Position numbers and translations under genes: made by a program. This document shows, one piece after another, positions 4,353 through 41,568 of a stretch of 64,000 bases of DNA (the first letter of the stretch is position 1; each line of letters opens with the position of its first letter). The stretch comes from Nitrospinota bacterium (GTDB lineage Bacteria; Nitrospinota_A; UBA7883; JACRGQ01): positions 1 to 64,000 of the forward strand of contig JAOUMJ010000011.1 of assembly GCA_029881495.1 (NCBI GenBank), written 5' to 3'. The notes under the pieces are model-generated. The model saw only the letters and a program-made list of their open reading frames with translations, had not been told where the DNA came from and did not search any database.

Positions 4353-5330
4353 TTATCGCTCCATGTACCGTTTATAGATGGTGATAACGAACAGCGCAAG
4401 CAGGAAATACCCCATGTATGCTTCAAGCGCGGAGAGTATCTTGCCTACACCTTCCGGCGAGTAGTCGCCATAGCCAAGAGTGGTGAATGTTACGACGCTA
4501 TAATAAAACGAGTTGTAGAGTATCAAAAGGTTGTCAGCAACGGAGAGTGAAAGCGAGAAGGAATCGGTTGAAACCCCTGAAAAGTGCGTCAATCCCAGAA
4601 AGCCGAATATAAGGGCAAATATGGTTATGGTGATGGTGGATAGGGTGATAATCCTGTACGGTTTTTCTCCATATCCGGTTGAAAAATCCATGAAGATTGA
4701 CCAGAAGCGTTCGGGCGACCAGGCTGGCATGAGCCTTCGCTGCATTATCATTTCGCGATAGAAAAATTTCCCGGCATAGTGTGAGAGACCCCTGCTTTGC
4801 AGGTTGTTCTTGACATTTCGGTAGATCTCCATCGCTTCATAGTATTTTTCACTAGCCTTGTCCAAATCCCCTTCATCAGATGCGTTATCCGCTTCAAGCT
4901 CGTTTTTAACCTTATATCCAGGCCCCCAATAGACATTTTCGAAACTTGCGTTGCCAAATTTTGTCCCCAGCAGTTCAGCATCAATAAGGACGGTCTGTTT
5001 AAAGTTTGCGTTATCCAGATTAGCCTTAAAAAGATTCGCGCCAGTAAGGTCGGAACCGAAAAGATGCGCGCCGCGCAGGGAGGCTCTCCTGAAGTTGACG
5101 TCCGTCAAATTCGCGTATGTCAGGTTCACGCCGTCCAGACTTGCGTTGTGAAGATTAAACCCTTCCAGTCGTTTACCGCTTTTATGTGCGTCTTCGAGAT
5201 GTTTTTTAAGCTCAATCCCTTTTCTATCCAAAGAAGGGTCGTGCCAGACGCAATAGACGGAATCCTTCCCCGCCGTCTCTTTGCAGGAGGTACTGTCGCG
5301 GAACTGGTATTTACATGTCCCTTGGCTCAT
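4353..5330 (-). CDS. Pentapeptide-repeat two-TM potassium channel, canonical filter
   Basis: 325 residues in four visible parts. The N-terminus has a C-C-C-H cluster (CKYQFRDSTSC, then YCVWHD), reminiscent of a small zinc knuckle. Residues 55-130 are A(D/N)LXX-type pentapeptide repeats, expected to form a right-handed beta-helix. A helical linker follows (YYEAMEIYRNVKNN). The C-terminal third is a two-TM pore: TM1 about 220-245, pore loop TTLGYGDYSP at about 283-292 with the canonical GYGD potassium filter, then TM2 ending in a basic tail (YKRYMER). Probably a plasma-membrane potassium channel with a cytosolic regulatory domain. It has a close paralogue immediately upstream in the same orientation. 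Confidence 0.85.
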   Translation of the reverse strand: MSQGTCKYQFRDSTSCKETAGKDSVYCVWHDPSLDRKGIELKKHLEDAHKSGKRLEGFNLHNASLDGVNLTYANLTDVNFRRASLRGAHLFGSDLTGANLFKANLDNANFKQTVLIDAELLGTKFGNASFENVYWGPGYKVKNELEADNASDEGDLDKASEKYYEAMEIYRNVKNNLQSRGLSHYAGKFFYREMIMQRRLMPAWSPERFWSIFMDFSTGYGEKPYRIITLSTITITIFALIFGFLGLTHFSGVSTDSFSLSLSVADNLLILYNSFYYSVVTFTTLGYGDYSPEGVGKILSALEAYMGYFLLALFVITIYKRYMER

Positions 5331-5415
5331 TTTGGATATACCCCTTGCAAATACGGTTCAATAATATGTGAGCACGGCTCCCCCAGACCAACATGCCTTT
5401 CCGGCCATACTGATT

Positions 5416-6387
5416 TTACCGCTCCATGTACCTTTTATATATTGTGATAACAAAAAGAACAATAAGAAAAAATCCGGTATACGCTTCCAGCATTGTGAAT
5501 ATCTTTCCAATGCCGTACGGTATGTACTCACTGTTTCCAAGAGTGGTAAATGTAACAACGCTGTAATAGAGCGAGTTAAAAAGGACTAAGAGCGATTCAT
5601 CCATCGTTTGGTTCGCGCTTAGCGCAGAAATCTCACCGGTATAATCCTTCAGGCCGGTGAGACTGAATATGAACATGAATCCGAACATTATGATAGCGGA
5701 AAAGCCGATAATCTTGAACGGCTTTTCACCATAGCCGGAAGAGATATCGAGCAGAAAAGACCAAAACCTTTCAAACGTGAAATAAGGTATCAGTTTTCTC
5801 TGCATTACCATCTCGCGATAAAAATATCTGCCCGCCTGGTTCTGCAGGCCACGGTTCTTGAAATTGTTTTTGATATTGAGATATATCTCCATCGCCTCGT
5901 AATATTTCTCCGCCGCTTTATCGGTCTCGCCTCTGCTCAGGAAGATGTCTCCCTCTATTTCATTTTTTATCTTGTTGTCGTTACCAAATTCAACATTATC
6001 CAGGCTTGCGTTACCAAGTCTGGCTCCAAGGAGTTCCGCGTCATACAGTGTGGTCTGTTTCAGGTTTGCGCTTTCAAGGTTGGCCTTAAAGAGGTTGGTT
6101 TTATTCAAATTTGATCCGAAAAAGTGGGCTCCTCGTAGATTTGCTCTTTTGAAGTTGACGTTATACAGGTCGGAATAGGTGAAGTTTATTCCCTCAAGAT
6201 TTGCCTTTTGAAGGTTAAAACCTTCGAGCTTTTCCCCTTTTTTATGCTTTTCATCAAGGATCTTTTTAATGTCGGCTCCGAGCCTGTCGGCATTTGGGTC
6301 GTGCCAGAAACAGTATCCAGAGTTACCCTGTTGTGGCTCCTTGCAGGTTGTTTTGTCCCGGTATTGGTATGTGCAGGAATTTTCCAT
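5416..6387 (-). CDS. Pentapeptide-repeat two-TM channel paralogue, altered filter
   Basis: 323 residues, collinear with the downstream neighbour along its length: same C-C-C-H N-terminus (CTYQYRDKTTC, YCFWHD), pentapeptide repeats, helical linker and two-TM pore, and an identical last ten residues (TIYKRYMER region). The pore loop differs at the critical place: TTLGNSEYIP at about 281-290, so GYGD has become GNSE. The rest of the pore helix (SVVTFTTLG) is conserved. By established channel chemistry this should lose simple potassium selectivity. A mixed tetramer with the neighbour is possible. The pair reads as a tandem duplication followed by divergence; 85 bases separate them. Confidence 0.82.
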   Translation of the reverse strand: MENSCTYQYRDKTTCKEPQQGNSGYCFWHDPNADRLGADIKKILDEKHKKGEKLEGFNLQKANLEGINFTYSDLYNVNFKRANLRGAHFFGSNLNKTNLFKANLESANLKQTTLYDAELLGARLGNASLDNVEFGNDNKIKNEIEGDIFLSRGETDKAAEKYYEAMEIYLNIKNNFKNRGLQNQAGRYFYREMVMQRKLIPYFTFERFWSFLLDISSGYGEKPFKIIGFSAIIMFGFMFIFSLTGLKDYTGEISALSANQTMDESLLVLFNSLYYSVVTFTTLGNSEYIPYGIGKIFTMLEAYTGFFLIVLFVITIYKRYMER

Positions 6388-18254: not shown

Positions 18255-18378
18255 GGTAGCGCAGACTTCAGTCTGCGTGAATTTCGGTATCGTAGCCTTC
18301 AGTCTGCGTATATTTCGGTAGCACAGACTTTAGTCTGAGTGTATTTCGGTAGCGTAGACTTCAGTCTGCGTTTGCCCC
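18255..18378. repeat. Four tandem 31-bp palindromic intergenic repeats
   Basis: Copies begin at 18255, 18286, 18317 and 18348, exactly 31 bp apart; each starts GGTA and contains a hairpin of the form GCAGACTTCAGTCTGC (some copies with one or two changes), with an ATTTC spacer. Sequences of this style are common dispersed intergenic repeats in environmental bacterial genomes. Their function is unknown; they could form stem-loops in the ffs upstream region or after the nucleotidyltransferase gene. Confidence 0.85.
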
Positions 18379-21176: not shown

Positions 21177-23444
21177 TTATTTTCCTCTATGGGGCTGAAA
21201 TGCCACAAATGAAGCAATGAGGTAAATTAAGGCTCCTATCAGGAGGACATTGGAGAATCCAACCAGGTATGCGAGGAGCGGGGCGGACGATGCGCCAAGT
21301 ACCGAAGCGAACCCGTTAGCGGCCATCCCCCAAGGTATGATGTAATCCGAGATCGATCCGGCAACTCTCAGACCGAGCGGGTATGGAAATCCCAAAATGA
21401 AACCGGTTACAGCAACCATCAAGATGAAGAGCAGGTTCATCAGAGTGAAATTCATGTTCTGCATGTTTGCAAAAACCGATTTGAACAAAAAGCAGTCGAT
21501 TATCAGTATTATTGCAATGGAAACCGTTATTTTTTGATGAAATTGCACCTTTTTTGAAAAATAGCCTCCGATAGCTGACGAGAAGAGCATAACAGGGACA
21601 ACAAACGCAAAAGATTTCACAGGCCCCCCCAGAAATAGAACTCCTTTTTGGATGAAAACCATCTCAACAAGCATATATCCGGCGCCGAGGGAGAAAAAGT
21701 AGGTTATCCAGTTTTTTGGCAGAGGTTCGGCAGTTTTTCGAATGAGTGGAAGGAGAAGAAGGAAAAGCGAAAATAGTCCTGTCTGGGCGATGATCAAAAT
21801 ATCCATCCCTCCACCGGTAAGGATCGGGAGCCACCTCCCGTCGAAGGCTTTTACCGTTTCTGGGATACGCGAAAATTTGAGGAAATTTTCAAAGAATGGG
21901 GCGTCGTCAGTTGGCGGGTCGGTATTGAAAAGCGTCTCTTTTCCGTTTTTCAAATCCTGTATGGCCATAAAGTAGATCGGCTCTCTGAATTCAACATTTC
22001 GGTTTGTATCATTTTCGGAGATACCCGGGAAGTAGACAGGATCGAGAAACAGACCATCGGCAATCTCTCTCAGCCTCGAGATCTGTTCTTTTGTAAAGGT
22101 TGAGTTTTGGTAGATGAGGGTGAAGGTCCCCCATGATCGGAAGGCGACAACCTTGTTCCATCCGTCAGATGATGCGCTGACAAAAAGTTGTACAAGTGTA
22201 TTTTCAACCCTTGGCGGTGGAAGTAGCGGAACGGCCACCGTCAAAATTCCGTCAGCAGTGAGGTGGTCTATTGATGACCTTACTACCTCCTTTGTGGATA
22301 AATAGTCCTCAGATAGGGTACCTGTACCTGTTCCGGCACCTGTGAAAGGCCTTGAAAAGGATATCAAATCATAATGAATAGCCTCTGAGAGATACTTTCG
22401 GAGTCCGGAAATTTCAATTTTGTAGACGAATTCCCTTGAAAAGAGCATGCTGTTGGCTATGAGGCGGTTTTCCTCCAGCATGTGGATAACTTCGCACCCG
22501 ATATCCCTTGAAATGTCATATTCTGTGGTACCCGATGCCCCGACTATCAATACTGAGTTAGGTTTTCGATATAGGTAGGGCAAAAGGAGCGGAAGGGGCA
22601 AATCTGAACCCTTACTATTTTCATACAGGGGGGCGTAGAGGCTTCCATTAAAGAATACACCTCTCATAGGTGGAACCGGTTTGGAAAAAGAGGGATTCAA
22701 TCCTGGGGCATGGCGGAGGTAGGGTGATCTGACGATATCCACTCTCCCTTCGGGACCTCGAAACGAGGCCAGGATTTCGGTGTTGGGGTATTTCTGGAAA
22801 TGGGAGATATCCTTGTAGTTGGAGATCGGGAGTTCCAGAGTGTCGATCTTCATAGCTGAAAAAGTGAGAACCATTATTGAAATGGCGATATTTCTAAAAA
22901 GTTCATCCCTTTTCCCAACCAGATTTGCCCCGAAAAGCGCAAGAGCTGTGGAGGTCATTGGGGGGAATCCGATATGGCGTGATAGCGCTAAAAAGAGAAT
23001 CGAGCCAAAACCGGCTCCAGCCATATCGGTAAAATAGATATTGCCCGACTCGGAGAAGTTCTCCTTCATCGTTTTTACTACAAAAAATGATGATAATAAA
23101 AATGGGATGGCTAGAATTGGGTAGTATGTTGATAGTTTGAGAATTTGCCATAGATCCCAATCAAGCTGAACAGGGTCGAATTCAACCCATCGTATGGTCA
23201 TTAGTGAGAGCGGATATGAAACCGAGAGTAGAAAAGCTGTCGTTTTCAGACTGAACCTTTGCGAAAAATTTGGAAAAACACGAATTACCACCCCAGAAGC
23301 GCCGATACCGAGCATCGCTGTCGAGACTACGATGGAGGCGAAATGGTGGTCAAAAGAGATGACGAATTGCGAAGTCAGGTATATTTCAAAGAGGAGAGCC
23401 GAAGAAGTAACGAAAAATACCGAGCTAAAGTTTCTCCCGTTCAA
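21177..23444 (-). CDS. Multi-TM protein with spermidine-synthase-like domain
   Basis: 755 residues: a first block of about six TM helices (1-210), a soluble Rossmann-like domain in the middle (VLIVGASGTTEYDISRDIG, then YDLISFSRPF), and a second block of about six TM helices at the C-terminus. The arrangement matches membrane-embedded spermine/spermidine synthase-like proteins, whose substrates are largely unknown. The first glycine-rich loop is VGASG where true methyltransferases and SpeE have GxGxG, so catalytic activity is uncertain. It overlaps the upstream pcm gene by four bases and is last in a three-gene operon. Confidence 0.65.
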   Translation of the reverse strand: MNGRNFSSVFFVTSSALLFEIYLTSQFVISFDHHFASIVVSTAMLGIGASGVVIRVFPNFSQRFSLKTTAFLLSVSYPLSLMTIRWVEFDPVQLDWDLWQILKLSTYYPILAIPFLLSSFFVVKTMKENFSESGNIYFTDMAGAGFGSILFLALSRHIGFPPMTSTALALFGANLVGKRDELFRNIAISIMVLTFSAMKIDTLELPISNYKDISHFQKYPNTEILASFRGPEGRVDIVRSPYLRHAPGLNPSFSKPVPPMRGVFFNGSLYAPLYENSKGSDLPLPLLLPYLYRKPNSVLIVGASGTTEYDISRDIGCEVIHMLEENRLIANSMLFSREFVYKIEISGLRKYLSEAIHYDLISFSRPFTGAGTGTGTLSEDYLSTKEVVRSSIDHLTADGILTVAVPLLPPPRVENTLVQLFVSASSDGWNKVVAFRSWGTFTLIYQNSTFTKEQISRLREIADGLFLDPVYFPGISENDTNRNVEFREPIYFMAIQDLKNGKETLFNTDPPTDDAPFFENFLKFSRIPETVKAFDGRWLPILTGGGMDILIIAQTGLFSLFLLLLPLIRKTAEPLPKNWITYFFSLGAGYMLVEMVFIQKGVLFLGGPVKSFAFVVPVMLFSSAIGGYFSKKVQFHQKITVSIAIILIIDCFLFKSVFANMQNMNFTLMNLLFILMVAVTGFILGFPYPLGLRVAGSISDYIIPWGMAANGFASVLGASSAPLLAYLVGFSNVLLIGALIYLIASFVAFQPHRGK

Positions 23445-24166
23445 TCCAGCATCCTACCGGTCATCGGAACGAAATTTACGGAAGCGATATTTTTCATCCT
23501 TATATCGTCACCCTCTTTGGTAACTAGTACCAGCGTTTGGAACAGCCAATTGGTATTCAGAGGCAAAACCAGCTTTCCGCCGTCTTTCAGTTGGGCTATA
23601 AGGGGGGGAGGTATATGGTTTACCGCCGCGGTTATGATCACAGCATCAAAAGGGGCTTTCTTCTCCAGCCCGAAATAGCCGTCCCCGAATATCGGATGTA
23701 CATTGGTATAGCCCAGCTTTTCCAGGAGCGGAGCGGTCCTGTTAAAAAGGACTTTTTTAATCTCTATTGTATAGACCTCCTTGCAGAGTGGGGAGAGGAC
23801 AGCCGCCTGATATCCGGAGCCTGTACCGATTTCCAGGATTTTTTCGGTCCCCTTTAGCTCCAAAAGCTCGGTCATTAAAGCGACAATATATGGCTGGGAG
23901 ATAGTTTGCCCTTCTCCAATCGGCAGGGGATGATCTCCATAAGCCCTTTTATTTTGCAAAGGTACAAAGAGATGCCGGGGTGTTTCCCGTAATGATTTAA
24001 TGACACGGGGATCTTTTATCCCCCTGGCTATTATCTGGCTGTCGACCATCAAATTTCTTTCCATGGCAAAGTCACCTGCATAAGTCGAAAAAGGTAAAAA
24101 TGAGGCGAATAAAAACGGAAAAATCCCGATTCGCATTAAAACGCTTCTCAAACTCTCCAAACTCAT
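23441..24166 (-). CDS. pcm: Protein-L-isoaspartate O-methyltransferase, apparently exported
   Basis: About 241 residues from the ATG at 24166, chosen because GGAAA lies 8 bases ahead and it follows the upstream stop directly. The PCMT core is clear: RHLFVPLQNKRAYGDHPLPI, GEGQTISQPYIVALM and the SAM motif ILEIGTGSGYQAAVLSPL. The enzyme repairs isoaspartyl damage. A hydrophobic stretch ahead of it (GIFPFLFASFLPFSTYAGD) looks like a signal peptide, so repair may act in the periplasm; ordinary Pcm is cytosolic. SAM supply outside the cytoplasm would then be a puzzle. Confidence 0.85.
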   Translation of the reverse strand: MSLESLRSVLMRIGIFPFLFASFLPFSTYAGDFAMERNLMVDSQIIARGIKDPRVIKSLRETPRHLFVPLQNKRAYGDHPLPIGEGQTISQPYIVALMTELLELKGTEKILEIGTGSGYQAAVLSPLCKEVYTIEIKKVLFNRTAPLLEKLGYTNVHPIFGDGYFGLEKKAPFDAVIITAAVNHIPPPLIAQLKDGGKLVLPLNTNWLFQTLVLVTKEGDDIRMKNIASVNFVPMTGRMLD

Positions 24167-24168
24167 GG

Positions 24169-24702
24169 TTATTTCCAAAGTTTCAGAAATGGAAAAAACA
24201 TCCATGTAGTTTTCATATACTCTTCATATTCCTTTCCAAATTTCTCCAAATTTTCGATTTCCTCAATTCTGGCGGTGGCAATAAGGGATATTGTTGCGAT
24301 GAGAAAAAGGGGGGTAGCGACAAGGGAGGTATCTTTTAGAAATGCTCCAATTGTGAGGAGGAGCAAGGAGCTGTATAGGGGGTGACGGATATACCTGTAT
24401 AGGCCGACTGTAACAAGTCTGGTGGTGTCCTCGATATGGTTTTGCGGTTTCCCGACCACCTTTAGCAGTCTGAATCCCTCAATGACGAAGAGGAGAGAGA
24501 GGGTCAGTATCAGCCAAGAGGCTATTTGCCCATAACCAAAAGGGTCAATAAACCAGAATTCGGAGTTAAGGAGAACCAGCAGGAGGATAGACTCAAAGGC
24601 GAAAAATCTGTAAAAGCCGTGGGATCTGGTATTGCAGAGGTAGGGCCAGGAGAAGACTATTATCCCGGCAGATGCCAGAACAAAAACAGATACTCTAATC
24701 AT
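24169..24702 (-). CDS. Isoprenylcysteine methyltransferase-like membrane methyltransferase
   Basis: 177 residues from the ATG at 24702, which has GGAGG five bases upstream; a longer ATG exists at 24720. Four or five TM helices, then the family signature LYRYIRHPLYSSLLL and a C-terminal EEYMKTTWMFFP segment. Members of the ICMT/phospholipid methyltransferase superfamily bind SAM at the membrane face; the bacterial substrate is usually unknown. First gene of the operon with pcm and the spermidine-synthase-like protein. Confidence 0.75.
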   Translation of the reverse strand: MIRVSVFVLASAGIIVFSWPYLCNTRSHGFYRFFAFESILLLVLLNSEFWFIDPFGYGQIASWLILTLSLLFVIEGFRLLKVVGKPQNHIEDTTRLVTVGLYRYIRHPLYSSLLLLTIGAFLKDTSLVATPLFLIATISLIATARIEEIENLEKFGKEYEEYMKTTWMFFPFLKLWK

Positions 24703-35975: not shown

Positions 35976-36192
35976 CTGAAAAGGTATAAATAGACACAGA
36001 TGTAGCATAATATGGTTGATGTATTATTTCGTTGCATATGTGAAAGGTGATATGGGGCGCAATTCCGAGTCGTTTGGAAAGTGCCAAAAGAATTGGTACA
36101 ATATAATTGAAGTAGGAAAGCAGTTTTACGTAATTTCAAAGGTATCGTGGAAGGACGTCTTCTTGAAAAACTTTTATAGTGGGGTTGGGAAA

Positions 36193-39100
36193 ATGATAAA
36201 CGTGAGTAAGCTTGGGGTCGCGGTTCTCATATCTATTTTCACACTAGTTGCCATTCCGAAAGAGGCACATTCTGCCAAGGTAATGAGCAAGGGTGAATAC
36301 ATAGATCTGCTCGTTCAAAAGGATCTTAAATCTTCTCATCAAAATGAATTTATTCCTCAAAATGCATCGAAGATGAAGAAGGACGATTTATACAAATCCG
36401 TTCTTGCATCAATGGCGAAAAAAGGGGTTAAACCTTTTTCATCAGATGATCTCAAATCCCCACTTACAAAAGTTGAGATGGTCGATTTCACATATGCCTT
36501 CCTTACAGGTGATGCTGGCGGAAACTTCATAGAGAGAAAATACTTCCTAAAAGAAAAAGGTGTCGTCGACCCCAACGACATCGGCATGGTAAAGAGTTAT
36601 GAAGGCGATGTAACTTTCACCCGCTTCGAGACCAAAAAGACTTTTGGGATAAACGGCAGTGAAGCTGTCCTTTTCAAGGATGTAGCGGAGACTGAAGAGG
36701 AATCCCGCCTGCAACTGGTATTTGACGATAACTCCGAACTTACTCTCGGTGAAGACAGCGCCGTTGAGATAAACCAGATGATTTTCGACCCCAAGAAGAA
36801 CATCAGGGATATTACCGTCAAAGTCGCTTTTGGTAAATTAAAGGTTAAAGCATCGAAACTGAACACTGCAGACGTTAATTTCAAGATTGAAACGCCGACA
36901 GCCGTTATCGGTGTACGCGGTACAGAATTTGTCGTTGACGTTAATGATACTGGTAAAACAAAAATAACGACTATCGAAGGTCTAGTTGCAGTAAAGCCCA
37001 ATCTTCAGCCTTTCAAAATAAACGGCGGGTCGAAGAATGTTCAGAAGAAAGTTACAAAGATAAATAAGGTCGTTGAAAAGGCTACGAAGGTAAAAGAAAA
37101 AGCCGCAGCCGAAAAAGCAGAGAAAAAAGAGGAAGTAGCGAAACAGAGCGATTCAGCTGAAGAAACAGCGACTACAGAAACAACCGCCGCAGAAACATCA
37201 TCTGCTCCGGTTGAAGCTGCATCTGCACAGGAAGAAGTTCTTCTAGGCGCAAACACCTCTACCGATGTTTCAGAAGAGGGTAATTCCAGCGGGCCTGTTG
37301 ACGTGCCGCCTGCTGAAATGCAGAAAATAATCAAGGAAACCACGGTCATTAATCCTGTAATTGTAGCCGGCGGCGGTGCGGTAAACGCAAGTGAAGCGAA
37401 GAAAGTTGTAGAAGTTGCTGCAAAAGTGGAAGAAGAAATTGTTACTGAAGAAGAAGCAAAGGCAGAAGAGGAGCCTGTAGCAGAAACAACTGAGACCGCC
37501 TCCGAAGAGACAGCTTCTGAAGAGGTCGCCTCCACAGAAGAGGAAGCAACAACTGAGGCTGGAACAGAAACCGAAGAGAAAAGCGTTGCAGAGGAAACCG
37601 TTATAGAAGTCGCTTCCCTGGATAAGGGCGATGGAGGGGAAAAAGCCGCTGAGCTTGAAAAGGAAAAAGACTCGGATGGAGACGGAGTTCCGGATGTAAA
37701 TGATAAATTCCCGAACGATCCAAACGAAGTTGTTGACTCGGATGGAGACGGTGTCGGTGATAACTCAGATGCTTTCCCGAGAAATGCTAAGGAAAAGGCA
37801 GATTCGGATGGAGACGGTGTCGGTGATAATTCAGATGCGTTCCCGAATGATCCGAAAGAGAGCGCCGATTCGGATGGCGATGGTGTCGGTGACAACGGCG
37901 ATGCTTTTCCAAGAGATGCTACTGAAGTTGCCGATTCGGATGGTGACGGTGTAGGTGATAATTCAGATGCGTTCCCGGCAAATGTTAACGAGTCCAAGGA
38001 TTCGGATGGCGATGGAATCGGCGACAACTCAGACAAGTTCCCGAAGGATTCAACCGAGTGGGTCGATTCGGATGGTGACGGCGTAGGCGATAATAAAGAC
38101 GCATTCCCGACTAACAAGAAAGAGTCGAAAGATTCGGATGGAGACGGCATCGGTGATAATTCAGATGCGTTCCCGAACGATGCAACGGAAACTGCTGATT
38201 CAGACGGCGATGGTGTAGGTGACAACAAGGATGCATTCCCGAACAACGCGAAGGAAAAGGCAGATTCTGACGGCGACGGCGTAGGCGATAATTCAGACAA
38301 ATTCCCGAAGGATCCTACCGAGTGGGCTGATTCAGATGGCGACGGCGTAGGCGATAACAAGGATGCATTCCCGAACAACGCGAAGGAATCTAAAGATTCC
38401 GACGGAGATGGCATCGGTGACAATTCCGATAAATTCCCAAACGATGCAACGGAAACTGCTGATGCAGACGGTGACGGCGTAGGCGATAACAAGGATGCCT
38501 TCCCGAAAAATAAGGCTGAGTGGGCAGATTCTGATGGCGATGGCGTAGGCGATAATTCCGACAAATTCCCGAACGACTCAACCGAGACTGCTGATTCTGA
38601 TGGCGACGGTATAGGTAATAACAAGGATGCTTTCCCGAATGATGCAACCGAGACTGCTGATTCAGACGGCGACGGTGTAGGCGATAACAAGGACGCATTC
38701 CCGAATGATCCAACCGAGACAGCAGACTCTGACGGCGACGGAGTTGGGGACAACAAGGATGCTTTCCCGAATGATCCGACCGAGACTGCAGACTCTGACG
38801 GTGATGGTGTAGGTGATAATAAGGACGCATTCCCGAATGATCCAACCGAGACCGCAGATTCTGATGGCGACGGTGTAGGTGATAATAAGGATGCTTTCCC
38901 GAATGATGCAACCGAGACTGCTGATGCAGACGGTGATGGTGTAGGTGATAATAAGGATGCTTTCCCGAACGATCCTACCGAAACCGCAGACTCTGACGGT
39001 GATGGTGTAGGTGATAATAAGGATGCTTTCCCGAATGATCCAACCGAGACCGCAGATTCTGATGGCGACGGTGTAGGTGATAATAAGGATGCTTTCCCGA

Positions 39101-41568
39101 ATGATCCAACCGAGACCGCAGATTCTGATGGCGACGGTGTAGGTGATAATAAGGATGCTTTCCCGAATGATGCAACCGAGACTGCTGATGCAGACGGCGA
39201 CGGTGTAGGCGACAATAAAGACGCATTCCCGAATGATCCGACAGAAACCGCGGATTCTGACGGTGATGGCGTTGGCGACAACAAGGATGCATTCCCGAAT
39301 GATCCAACCGAGACCGTAGACTCTGACGGTGATGGTGTTGGCGACAACAAGGATGCATTCCCGAATGATCCGACAGAAACAGCGGATTCTGACGGTGATG
39401 GCGTTGGCGACAACAAGGACGCCTTCCCGAATGATCCGACAGAAACAGCTGATTCAGACGGTGACGGTGTAGGCAACAATAAGGACGCATTCCCGAATGA
39501 TCCTACCGAGACTGCAGACTCTGACGGTGACGGTGTAGGCAACAACAAGGACGCATTCCCGAATGATCCTACCGAGACTGCAGATTCTGACGGTGATGGT
39601 GTAGGCAACAACAAGGACGCATTCCCGAACGACCCAACTGAGACTGCTGATTCAGACGGCGACGGTGTAGGCGACAACAAGGATGCTTTCCCGTTTGATC
39701 CGACCGAGTGGGCTGATGCTAATGGTAATGGTATTGGTGATAATAAAGAAGCGTCGCTTCTGGCATTAAGCGGTGCAAACTTCCTTGCGATGTGGAATAC
39801 GTTATCACCGCAGGAGCAGGCTCTTTTAAGCAACCTCCTTGCACTAGATCAGAAAGTGTCTATTGCACAGTCGGATATTGGTAATCTGCAGGGTACAAAT
39901 CTCGTAACCTACTGGAAATCACTTGGCGCTGATGTTCAGGGACAGTTGATCGCAGGTCTTACGGCTCAACAGGCGCAGACGATGTTGAGCGGAATGGCCG
40001 GAGCAGAACTTGTTGCATTCTGGAACGCTCTTACCCCTTCTCAGCAGGTAGGGGTGGTTCTTGACGGCACACAGGCTCTTGCGATCATGAACACGGGTAA
40101 TTTGTCTGGAGCAGTTCTTGTCAATTTCTGGTTCACGCTTGATCCGGCTACCCAAGCCGCGATAATTCCCAGCCTGAATACGATGCAGGCACAGACGATT
40201 CTTGACTCACTGACGGGTGCAGAGCGCCAGGCTTTCTGGAACGCCTTGTCACCCGAAATGCAGGCTCAGCTCAATAATGGCCAGAATCCACCGACAGATG
40301 CCGAGATAGGCGATGCGGTAGCAGCTGAGCTTTCGAAGCTTCCAGGTGGAGCTAACGACCAAAGAGCAATCGTTGCCAGTGATGATGTTGTTGCTGCGAT
40401 AAAAGCAGGAGGTCTTGCTTCAGCGGAAGATATTGATGGCGGATTTAAACCAGAAAACTACCAGCTACAGACAGGCGAGTATACCAGCGAAGATGTGAAA
40501 ACCGCACTGTCTGGCAGTGGATACCTTTCCTATGCTGTTCAGGTTGAAGAGGACTTTGTGAACAAGGCTTCGCTGAGAATTTTCAATGATAGCCGGGCTA
40601 CAATGGATGGAGAAGACGATGATCATAGGGATCATGTGCGAAACGAACTGTGGGGCAATATAGATAGTGCCCTTGAAAACTCCGATATCCGTGGTCGTGA
40701 TGCCTTGCTTGAGGAAGTAGCTGACGCAAGGGCCGGCAGGGTTCTTAAGGATGCAAATGGCAACTGGGTTAGGGTTCAGCAGTATGTAATTCGCCCGACA
40801 TCCGATTCATTACAGGTAGTAAGCGTAAATCTGCGGGGCGCGGAGGCTGGAGATCTTTCCGGTCTGCAGTCAATGGACTGGCAAACCGAGTTCGATAAAA
40901 ACCTGCCGGGTGGAAGTGCGATACTTGACCTGCCGTGGGCAGACTACCTGAATACTTACAGGGATTCGAGCGGTAAAACCGGTGGTGATAGCAACGAACA
41001 TGGTAAACAAGGTGAATCAAAAACCGGTTATGTTAAACATGACAGCGACTATGAATTGGATAAGATGTCTGTTGAGTTTAAATCGGGTAGCGACTCGCTT
41101 AAGGAATCAAGATCCTTTAAGGAATTGGATCATGGCAAACAGTCCATATTCGATGAGACTTTGACCGTAAACGGCGAATCGTTCGAGTATGACAGGAACT
41201 TGAATTCCAAGTCGAAGTATATGATTACCATGGTATCCGGCGGAGAATTGAAGTACAGGTACTCAATCAAGGATAGCAATGGAGAAAAGAAGGACATCGA
41301 CGTAAGCCTGTTCGTAGTGGGCGACGCGCATCTGGCCGATAACGTCGGAGTTGACGGTTCAGTTGAAACCGGAGTAAAGGACGTGTGGCAGGGGCTTGGT
41401 GCAAATACAGAAGGTAGCTCAGTAAATGTTGGAAACAATAATCTTGAATTCAGGTTCTCCAACACAAAAGCCAGCAGCGGATTGCTGACAAATCCTCTTG
41501 ATTTGGTATACATACCTCTGCCGAGGATGGATTGGAAAGCCGCTAGTGTGGAAAGGCACCACGATTAG
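36193..41568 (+). CDS. Giant exported FecR-domain protein with 22-residue calcium-loop repeats
   Basis: About 1791 residues from the ATG at 36193, chosen because GGGGTTGGGA precedes it and a signal peptide begins there (GVAVLISIFTLVAIP, cleavage near AHSA). Residues about 150-275 form a FecR-like domain (LTLGEDSAVEINQM, TPTAVIGVRGTEFVVDV). Then a Glu/Ala/Thr-rich linker (about 290-490), 31 repeats of 22 residues (493-1174) built on DSDGDGVGDN, a thrombospondin-type-3-like calcium loop, five W-containing 36-residue repeats (about 1190-1365), and a ~420-residue C-terminus with no family I recognise. Likely a calcium-stiffened surface rod or adhesin. No cell-wall anchor, autotransporter barrel or type I signal is obvious, so its route past the periplasm is open. 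Confidence 0.8.
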   Translation: MINVSKLGVAVLISIFTLVAIPKEAHSAKVMSKGEYIDLLVQKDLKSSHQNEFIPQNASKMKKDDLYKSVLASMAKKGVKPFSSDDLKSPLTKVEMVDFTYAFLTGDAGGNFIERKYFLKEKGVVDPNDIGMVKSYEGDVTFTRFETKKTFGINGSEAVLFKDVAETEEESRLQLVFDDNSELTLGEDSAVEINQMIFDPKKNIRDITVKVAFGKLKVKASKLNTADVNFKIETPTAVIGVRGTEFVVDVNDTGKTKITTIEGLVAVKPNLQPFKINGGSKNVQKKVTKINKVVEKATKVKEKAAAEKAEKKEEVAKQSDSAEETATTETTAAETSSAPVEAASAQEEVLLGANTSTDVSEEGNSSGPVDVPPAEMQKIIKETTVINPVIVAGGGAVNASEAKKVVEVAAKVEEEIVTEEEAKAEEEPVAETTETASEETASEEVASTEEEATTEAGTETEEKSVAEETVIEVASLDKGDGGEKAAELEKEKDSDGDGVPDVNDKFPNDPNEVVDSDGDGVGDNSDAFPRNAKEKADSDGDGVGDNSDAFPNDPKESADSDGDGVGDNGDAFPRDATEVADSDGDGVGDNSDAFPANVNESKDSDGDGIGDNSDKFPKDSTEWVDSDGDGVGDNKDAFPTNKKESKDSDGDGIGDNSDAFPNDATETADSDGDGVGDNKDAFPNNAKEKADSDGDGVGDNSDKFPKDPTEWADSDGDGVGDNKDAFPNNAKESKDSDGDGIGDNSDKFPNDATETADADGDGVGDNKDAFPKNKAEWADSDGDGVGDNSDKFPNDSTETADSDGDGIGNNKDAFPNDATETADSDGDGVGDNKDAFPNDPTETADSDGDGVGDNKDAFPNDPTETADSDGDGVGDNKDAFPNDPTETADSDGDGVGDNKDAFPNDATETADADGDGVGDNKDAFPNDPTETADSDGDGVGDNKDAFPNDPTETADSDGDGVGDNKDAFPNDPTETADSDGDGVGDNKDAFPNDATETADADGDGVGDNKDAFPNDPTETADSDGDGVGDNKDAFPNDPTETVDSDGDGVGDNKDAFPNDPTETADSDGDGVGDNKDAFPNDPTETADSDGDGVGNNKDAFPNDPTETADSDGDGVGNNKDAFPNDPTETADSDGDGVGNNKDAFPNDPTETADSDGDGVGDNKDAFPFDPTEWADANGNGIGDNKEASLLALSGANFLAMWNTLSPQEQALLSNLLALDQKVSIAQSDIGNLQGTNLVTYWKSLGADVQGQLIAGLTAQQAQTMLSGMAGAELVAFWNALTPSQQVGVVLDGTQALAIMNTGNLSGAVLVNFWFTLDPATQAAIIPSLNTMQAQTILDSLTGAERQAFWNALSPEMQAQLNNGQNPPTDAEIGDAVAAELSKLPGGANDQRAIVASDDVVAAIKAGGLASAEDIDGGFKPENYQLQTGEYTSEDVKTALSGSGYLSYAVQVEEDFVNKASLRIFNDSRATMDGEDDDHRDHVRNELWGNIDSALENSDIRGRDALLEEVADARAGRVLKDANGNWVRVQQYVIRPTSDSLQVVSVNLRGAEAGDLSGLQSMDWQTEFDKNLPGGSAILDLPWADYLNTYRDSSGKTGGDSNEHGKQGESKTGYVKHDSDYELDKMSVEFKSGSDSLKESRSFKELDHGKQSIFDETLTVNGESFEYDRNLNSKSKYMITMVSGGELKYRYSIKDSNGEKKDIDVSLFVVGDAHLADNVGVDGSVETGVKDVWQGLGANTEGSSVNVGNNNLEFRFSNTKASSGLLTNPLDLVYIPLPRMDWKAASVERHHD
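37669..39756 (+). repeat. 31 in-register 66-bp coding repeats plus one partial
   Basis: Unit starts step by exactly 66 bp from 37669 to 39715, giving 31 whole units with no indel, then a decayed partial (DANGNGIGDN). Consensus protein unit: DSDGDGVGDNKDAFPNDPTE plus two residues. Units 1-15 vary at residues 11-22; units 16-30 are nearly uniform and share long identical DNA. A four-unit (264-bp) higher-order period is visible: 38857 and 39121 begin identical stretches of about 80 bp. Confidence 0.95.
39757..40280 (+). repeat. Five 36-residue W-motif repeats in the large protein
   Basis: Five copies of a motif of the form (L/R)xx(F/Y/M)W-x-x-L-x-x-x-x-Q: FLAMWNTLSPQEQ, LVTYWKSLGADVQ, LVAFWNALTPSQQ, LVNFWFTLDPATQ and RQAFWNALSPEMQ. 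Tryptophan spacing is 40, 36, 36 and 36 residues. Predicted helical; no named repeat family comes to mind. Confidence 0.8.

Follow-up and report, generated by a model that had tools for sequence, protein, structure and literature searches.

Described channels closest to the tandem pair

Tetrameric channels of bacteria are usually regarded as homomers, each with a single fixed filter. Of the solved structures that were listed, HalA, the effector channel of the anti-phage system Hailong (PDB 9nyi, NCBIfam NF051894), came closest in overall architecture to the two proteins described here; it is reported as an ion channel blocked by poly-dA from HalB (PMC13275509). Departures from the potassium filter are likewise documented for NaK, whose filter TVGDGN has only two sites (S3 and S4) and is non-selective, four being restored by TVGYGD (PMC9822992); for NaKTs of Tsukamurella paurometabola, a two-transmembrane (2TM) channel with the filter LPMGNGPLSP that is a non-selective, Ca2+-dependent cation channel, and for CNG channels, with the filter TIGETP (both PMC5052707); and for GIRK2, in which a Gly-to-Ser change in the filter led to a loss of selectivity in simulation (PMC9001731).

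Proteins with the same plan as our pair, pentapeptide repeats followed by a 2TM pore with a TT(L/I)GYG(D/N) filter, occur on haloarchaeal plasmids (filter GYGD or GYGN) and in gammaproteobacteria, where most carry an N-terminal C-C-C-H cluster, all are single copy in the searched genomes, and none of the filters read is GNSE. The homologues are annotated as "pentapeptide repeat-containing protein" or "potassium channel family protein", and no functional study of pentapeptide-repeat channels was found in a literature search.

Location and arrangement of the two genes

In the 64,000-nucleotide stretch of DNA that was analysed (the window), two collinear genes of this kind were located on the minus strand, to which all coordinates of the pair refer. 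ORF B (P0002; 5416-6387; 323 aa), with the filter TTLGNSE, lies upstream of ORF A (P0001; 4353-5330; 325 aa), with the canonical filter TTLGYGD; both begin with ATG, both were assigned with Pfam as pentapeptide-repeat 2TM channels, and the two proteins are 57% identical over their full length. The B stop and the A ATG are separated by 85 bp (5331-5415), and a consensus scan of this spacer, weak evidence by its nature, detected no minus-strand promoter- or terminator-like sites, which would fit co-transcription of B and A. Read by eye, the translations of the neighbouring ORFs pointed to a Lon protease on the upstream side and a thioesterase-like product on the downstream side.

The surroundings of the channel gene showed no conserved synteny with family relatives. 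An ORF resembling protein-L-isoaspartate methyltransferase is found about 17 kb away from the channels (window 23441-24205), and a similar ORF directly adjoins the single channel gene of a family relative, G006 (L096 10533-11264); the two are possibly remnants of an old synteny.

Domain architecture and comparison with HalA

A and B share one plan: the C-C-C-H cluster comes first, then the pentapeptide beta-helix and the helical linker, and the two-TM pore last. The Pfam Pentapeptide model (cut-off 20.2) scored 62.5 bits (2.5e-17) in A and 53.6 bits (1.6e-14) in B, and Ion_trans_2 (cut-off 22.5) scored 39.7 bits (4.5e-10) and 27.2 bits (3.6e-6), all above the cut-offs. AlphaFold2 (AF2) models were built from a four-sequence alignment, with mean pLDDT of 65 and 68; the beta-helix (about residues 51-135) and the linker (141-198) were confident, whereas TM1, the pore helix and TM2 were of low confidence (pLDDT about 35-65).

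At the N terminus, the motif C-x9-C-x10-C-x2-H is formed by C5, C15, C26 and H29 in B (6301-6375) and by C6, C16, C27 and H30 in A (5241-5315), and is a putative zinc-binding cluster. The pentapeptide-repeat right-handed beta-helix follows at about residues 51-135 of B (5983-6237; Pfam, AF2 pLDDT 74-91 and Foldseek) and 52-136 of A (4923-5177; Pfam, AF2 and VIA-align). The linker of B (5737-5967; AF2 and alignments) comprises helices at 141-151, 155-178, 182-198 and 205-217 with a conserved YREM motif, and a GYGEKP motif follows at its end. TM1 of B is predicted at residues 223-243 (5659-5721; AF2, low confidence, pLDDT about 45-57) and TM2 at 293-322 (5422-5511; alignment and low-confidence AF2), running to the C terminus KRYMER.

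For comparison within the family, 69 full-length members were collected: from this phylum, from a single genome of a second phylum and from the order to which an Alteromonadaceae genome belongs. The C-C-C-H cluster was present in 62 of the 69, with slightly variable spacing, and is, as far as these proteins tell, a family trait; its combination with a beta-helix, considered unusual in the sequence-only reading, is therefore not so within the family. The seven members from the Alteromonadaceae order that are without the cluster (L085, L086, L087, L089, L090, L091 and L092) keep the beta-helix, the linker and a GYGD pore, indicating that the cluster is dispensable in some lineages.

Of the listed solved structures, HalA complexed with oligodeoxyadenylate (9nyi) was the one matched along nearly the whole chain (Foldseek E 2.3e-4 across 260 columns, with a low-confidence model); most fold matches (HetL, MfpA, Qnr and synthetic solenoids) covered the beta-helix alone. 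With the same low-confidence model, VIA-align gave a Z of 11.2 over 261 of 333 residues (model residues 7-323), with an rmsd of 7.9 A and 8% identity. As far as the match reaches, the order of elements in A and B is HalA-like: pentapeptide beta-helix, helices and C-terminal pore. A sequence search of the linker/TM1 block against the PDB yielded nothing. The HalA profile NF051894 matched residues 191-321 of A (linker and pore; 4.3e-5) with 22.9 bits, short of its curated cut-off of 250, and gave no match on B at E values up to 1; no genome of the phylum had a HalA above the cut-off, and further searches for bona fide HalA genes whose filter could be read also yielded none above it. No HalB-like nucleotidyltransferase neighbour was recognised when the translations around A and B were read by eye, without a profile. 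Membership of A and B in Hailong was rejected, given scores far below the HalA cut-off and no HalB-like neighbour recognised among the translations read; judged by profile, fold match and neighbours, the pair is HalA-like in plan and is not HalA. This link, which the sequence-only reading had not drawn, sets a widespread family, present in about one fifth of the sampled Alteromonadaceae order, in haloarchaea and in this phylum, beside a channel with a known DNA gate, which makes the question of the ligand of the pentapeptide channels directly testable.

The selectivity filters of A and B

The filter stretch reads ...SVVTFTTLGYGDYSP in A and ...SVVTFTTLGNSEYIP in B, with TTLGYGDYSP in the former opposed to TTLGNSEYIP in the latter. 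The codon comparison placed GYGD at residues 286-289 of A (4464-4475; GGC TAT GGC GAC) and the GNSE that replaces it at residues 284-287 of B (5527-5538; GGA AAC AGT GAG). Five base differences thus account for the three residue changes, and a sixth, in the codon of the first Gly, is silent; with several independent base changes involved, neither one sequencing error nor a frameshift can be the source of GNSE. The T-x-G-[YF]-G signature of K+-selective channels is present in A and absent in B, which keeps T-T-L-G and the pore helix S-V-V-T-F unchanged while its outer Y-G-D is replaced, the pattern seen in NaK and CNG filters.

Among the 69 full-length members, 67 have GYGD, B has GNSE and one Alteromonadaceae MAG has GFED, so that the three positions replaced in B are held by Y in 67/68, G in 67/68 and D in 68/68 of the other members. 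GYGD was also found in four further members (a fragment from G007, two gammaproteobacteria and Aeromonas). The GFED protein is a single-copy homologue (L015, CAJXMO010000014.1, match 4983-5969; filter TTLGFED, codons GGT TTT GAA GAT) and the only other filter departure in the set, a putative one that may stem from an error in the MAG.

At 58 alignment columns, at least 95% of the 67 other members share the residue. B departs from it, privately and without a gap, at seven of these columns, and the Y, G and D of the filter account for three of the seven (hypergeometric p = 0.0011); this clustering in the filter indicates a focal change and not a general decay. The coordinates, the codons and the focal deviations agree with the sequence-only reading of tandem paralogues that differ sharply at the potassium filter.

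Comparison with the channels described above shows likeness and difference. NaK resembles B in its 2TM pore, in the T-x-G that is kept next to a changed outer filter and in a two-site filter, which for B is predicted; it differs in its outer residues, DGN where B has NSE, and in not being part of a tandem pair. To our knowledge, NaK has neither a pentapeptide nor a C-C-C-H domain. NaKTs, like B, is a 2TM channel with a one-off filter, and it has been shown to work, so a channel is not necessarily dead because its filter is unique; the filter of NaKTs, unlike that of B, is proline-rich and binds Ca2+, and no comparable sensor domain is described in the excerpts of its report.

Origin and distribution of the pair

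In the family tree A and B were sister in-paralogues (support 98/96), with branch lengths of 0.65 for B and 0.48 for A, by which measure B is only mildly accelerated. No further full-architecture family members were found in this genome. The family profile was run on 24 genomes from this phylum, on 385 relatives, and on 295 and 358 genomes from the order and the class of the Alteromonadaceae, respectively. The gene was detected in 8 of the 24 genomes of the phylum, with two copies only in this one, and in 64 of the 295 of the order, always as a single copy; no second genome with two copies appeared in any of the four sets, and no GNSE outside B among the filters read from them. Recurrence of GYGD/GNSE pairs, the check proposed in the sequence-only reading, was accordingly not found in the profile-searched genomes. 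That reading had also held that restriction to one strain would speak against it, and this is borne out in part: GNSE and the pair are known from one genome only, and that genome is the sole one of its genus in the collection. The tree and these counts identify the pair as a tandem duplication specific to this lineage, so far seen in a single genome. Searches of phage and viral collections returned partial or weak matches only, with no close full-length relative.

There was no sign of recent gene conversion between A and B, their third codon positions differing at 53% in the pore region. In 5 of the 14 gammaproteobacterial neighbourhoods that were read (L014, L015, L143, L145 and L151), the channel gene lies near an ORF of about 550 aa with a CheY-type response regulator-like start and apparent TPR-like repeats, and a functional link between the two is possible.

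Maintenance of B

Both frames are intact, that of B over 323 codons. Differences between A and B at codon positions 1, 2 and 3 amount to 102, 72 and 203 of 323; at 63%, third positions come close to saturation, against 22% for second positions. In simulations of neutral drift, 0.1% of the runs still had an open B frame at 0.3 substitutions per site, and no run did at 0.5. On present evidence, with duration gauged by the divergence from A and a single genome at hand, B is under purifying selection and has been kept. B as a decaying pseudogene or an assembly error was rejected, as five separate base changes underlie the three replacements, its frame is intact, the differences from A fall mostly in third positions and the losses at conserved sites concentrate in the filter. 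Pseudogenisation of the GNSE copy, the other outcome that the sequence-only reading had named against itself, thus finds no support (neutral-drift P of about 0.001 or less at 0.3 or more substitutions per site).

After the duplication, B could have lost its channel function while its frame stayed open; it would then either be about to disappear or serve solely to sense a ligand in the cytosol, its membrane part being no more than an inert anchor. The private deviations outside the filter, which include the conserved R170 (L), S204 (T) and A310 (V), and the occurrence of B in one genome would be in line with such a loss, which we nevertheless regard as very unlikely, given a frame that is intact despite near-saturated third positions and a pore region whose conservation is the reverse of what the loss of a pore would lead one to expect.

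Conservation of the pore and possible modes of assembly

The pore helix and TM2 are the best conserved region between A and B (74% identity), and TM1 with the following loop the least conserved (31%), which upholds the earlier statement that the pore helix and tail are conserved. By homology, each channel would be tetrameric, its cytosolic sensor domains preceding TM1 and its TM2 ending at the C terminus; the C-C-C-H cluster, beta-helix and linker would sense a cytosolic ligand, pull on TM1 and gate the pore. A would conduct K+ selectively. B keeps the residues of the inner sites, T-x-G (S3-S4), and the N-S-E that replaces the outer Y-G-D should remove S1-S2, as in NaK and CNG; our best guess is therefore a pore subunit without K+ selectivity, B forming a pore, or part of one, that would no longer discriminate K+. 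A non-selective channel or a regulatory subunit of heterotetramers, as proposed in the sequence-only reading, remains the best reading of B.

Our preferred reading, held tentatively and at a little short of an even chance, is that A forms a ligand-gated channel selective for K+ and that B is a maintained subunit lacking such selectivity, with mixed A/B tetramers as the likeliest form and B homotetramers next. The commonest state in the cell would be the mixed tetramer, with changed selectivity or conductance, and B homotetramers would come second. Mixing is put first because the genes are adjacent in one direction and the interface of pore helix and TM2 is the best conserved part; the spacer, free of promoter- or terminator-like sites, leans slightly the same way.

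The low identity of TM1 and its loop could equally mean that A and B assemble separately, and B might be a stand-alone, NaK/CNG-like non-selective channel for Na+, and perhaps Ca2+, that never mixes with A. The divergence of TM1 and the parallel between the T-x-G plus altered outer filter of B and TVGDGN and TIGETP suit such a channel, but the shared direction and close spacing of the genes, together with highly similar TM2 and pore helices, speak against it, and we judge strict separation to be rather improbable.

A filter with a changed outer part, as in B, may also simply be non-conducting. B would then be a silent or dominant-negative subunit that assembles with A and whose level sets the A current. 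The second filter Gly of K+ channels is a residue that few filters can lose, and in eukaryotic tetramers a channel subunit whose mutated filter does not conduct is known to act dominantly; in B all three outer filter residues are changed, this Gly included, and the adjacency to A and the conserved pore helix and TM2 point the same way. Against this, a mere plug would not need the T-T-L-G and pore helix that B has kept, and four Glu side chains at the outer mouth would probably suit the conduction of cations. We consider a silent B possible, if on the unlikely side.

Returning to the preferred reading of B as a non-K+-selective pore subunit, its fullest form would be a prokaryotic heteromeric 2TM channel in which a K+-selective A and a dedicated degenerate-filter B are expressed from one operon and their mixing tunes selectivity or conductance in response to a ligand sensed by the HalA-like pentapeptide domain; we put this forward as a conceivable, though doubtful, arrangement. 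If the heteromeric reading were true, it would constitute an independently arisen bacterial parallel to the A/B subunit system of animal CNG channels. With GYGD retained in one copy and the other altered mainly at the filter, such a tandem pair is a natural experiment in the evolution of selectivity after duplication, and A and B are two matched proteins with which to ask whether bacteria use mixed channels.

Other repeats in the window

Two further repeat arrays were observed. A 31-bp tandem repeat of 3.8 copies (unit GGTAGCGCAGACTTCAGTCTGCGTGTATTTC) lies between ORFs at window 18255-18371, each unit containing the imperfect palindrome GCAGACTTCAGTCTGC. An ORF of 1850 aa (window 36016-41568) encodes about 24 or more tandem 22-residue DSDGDGVGDNKDAFPNDPTETA repeats (period 66 bp; array 37708-39708), which resemble calcium-binding thrombospondin type 3 repeats and are preceded by an apparent FecR-like domain.
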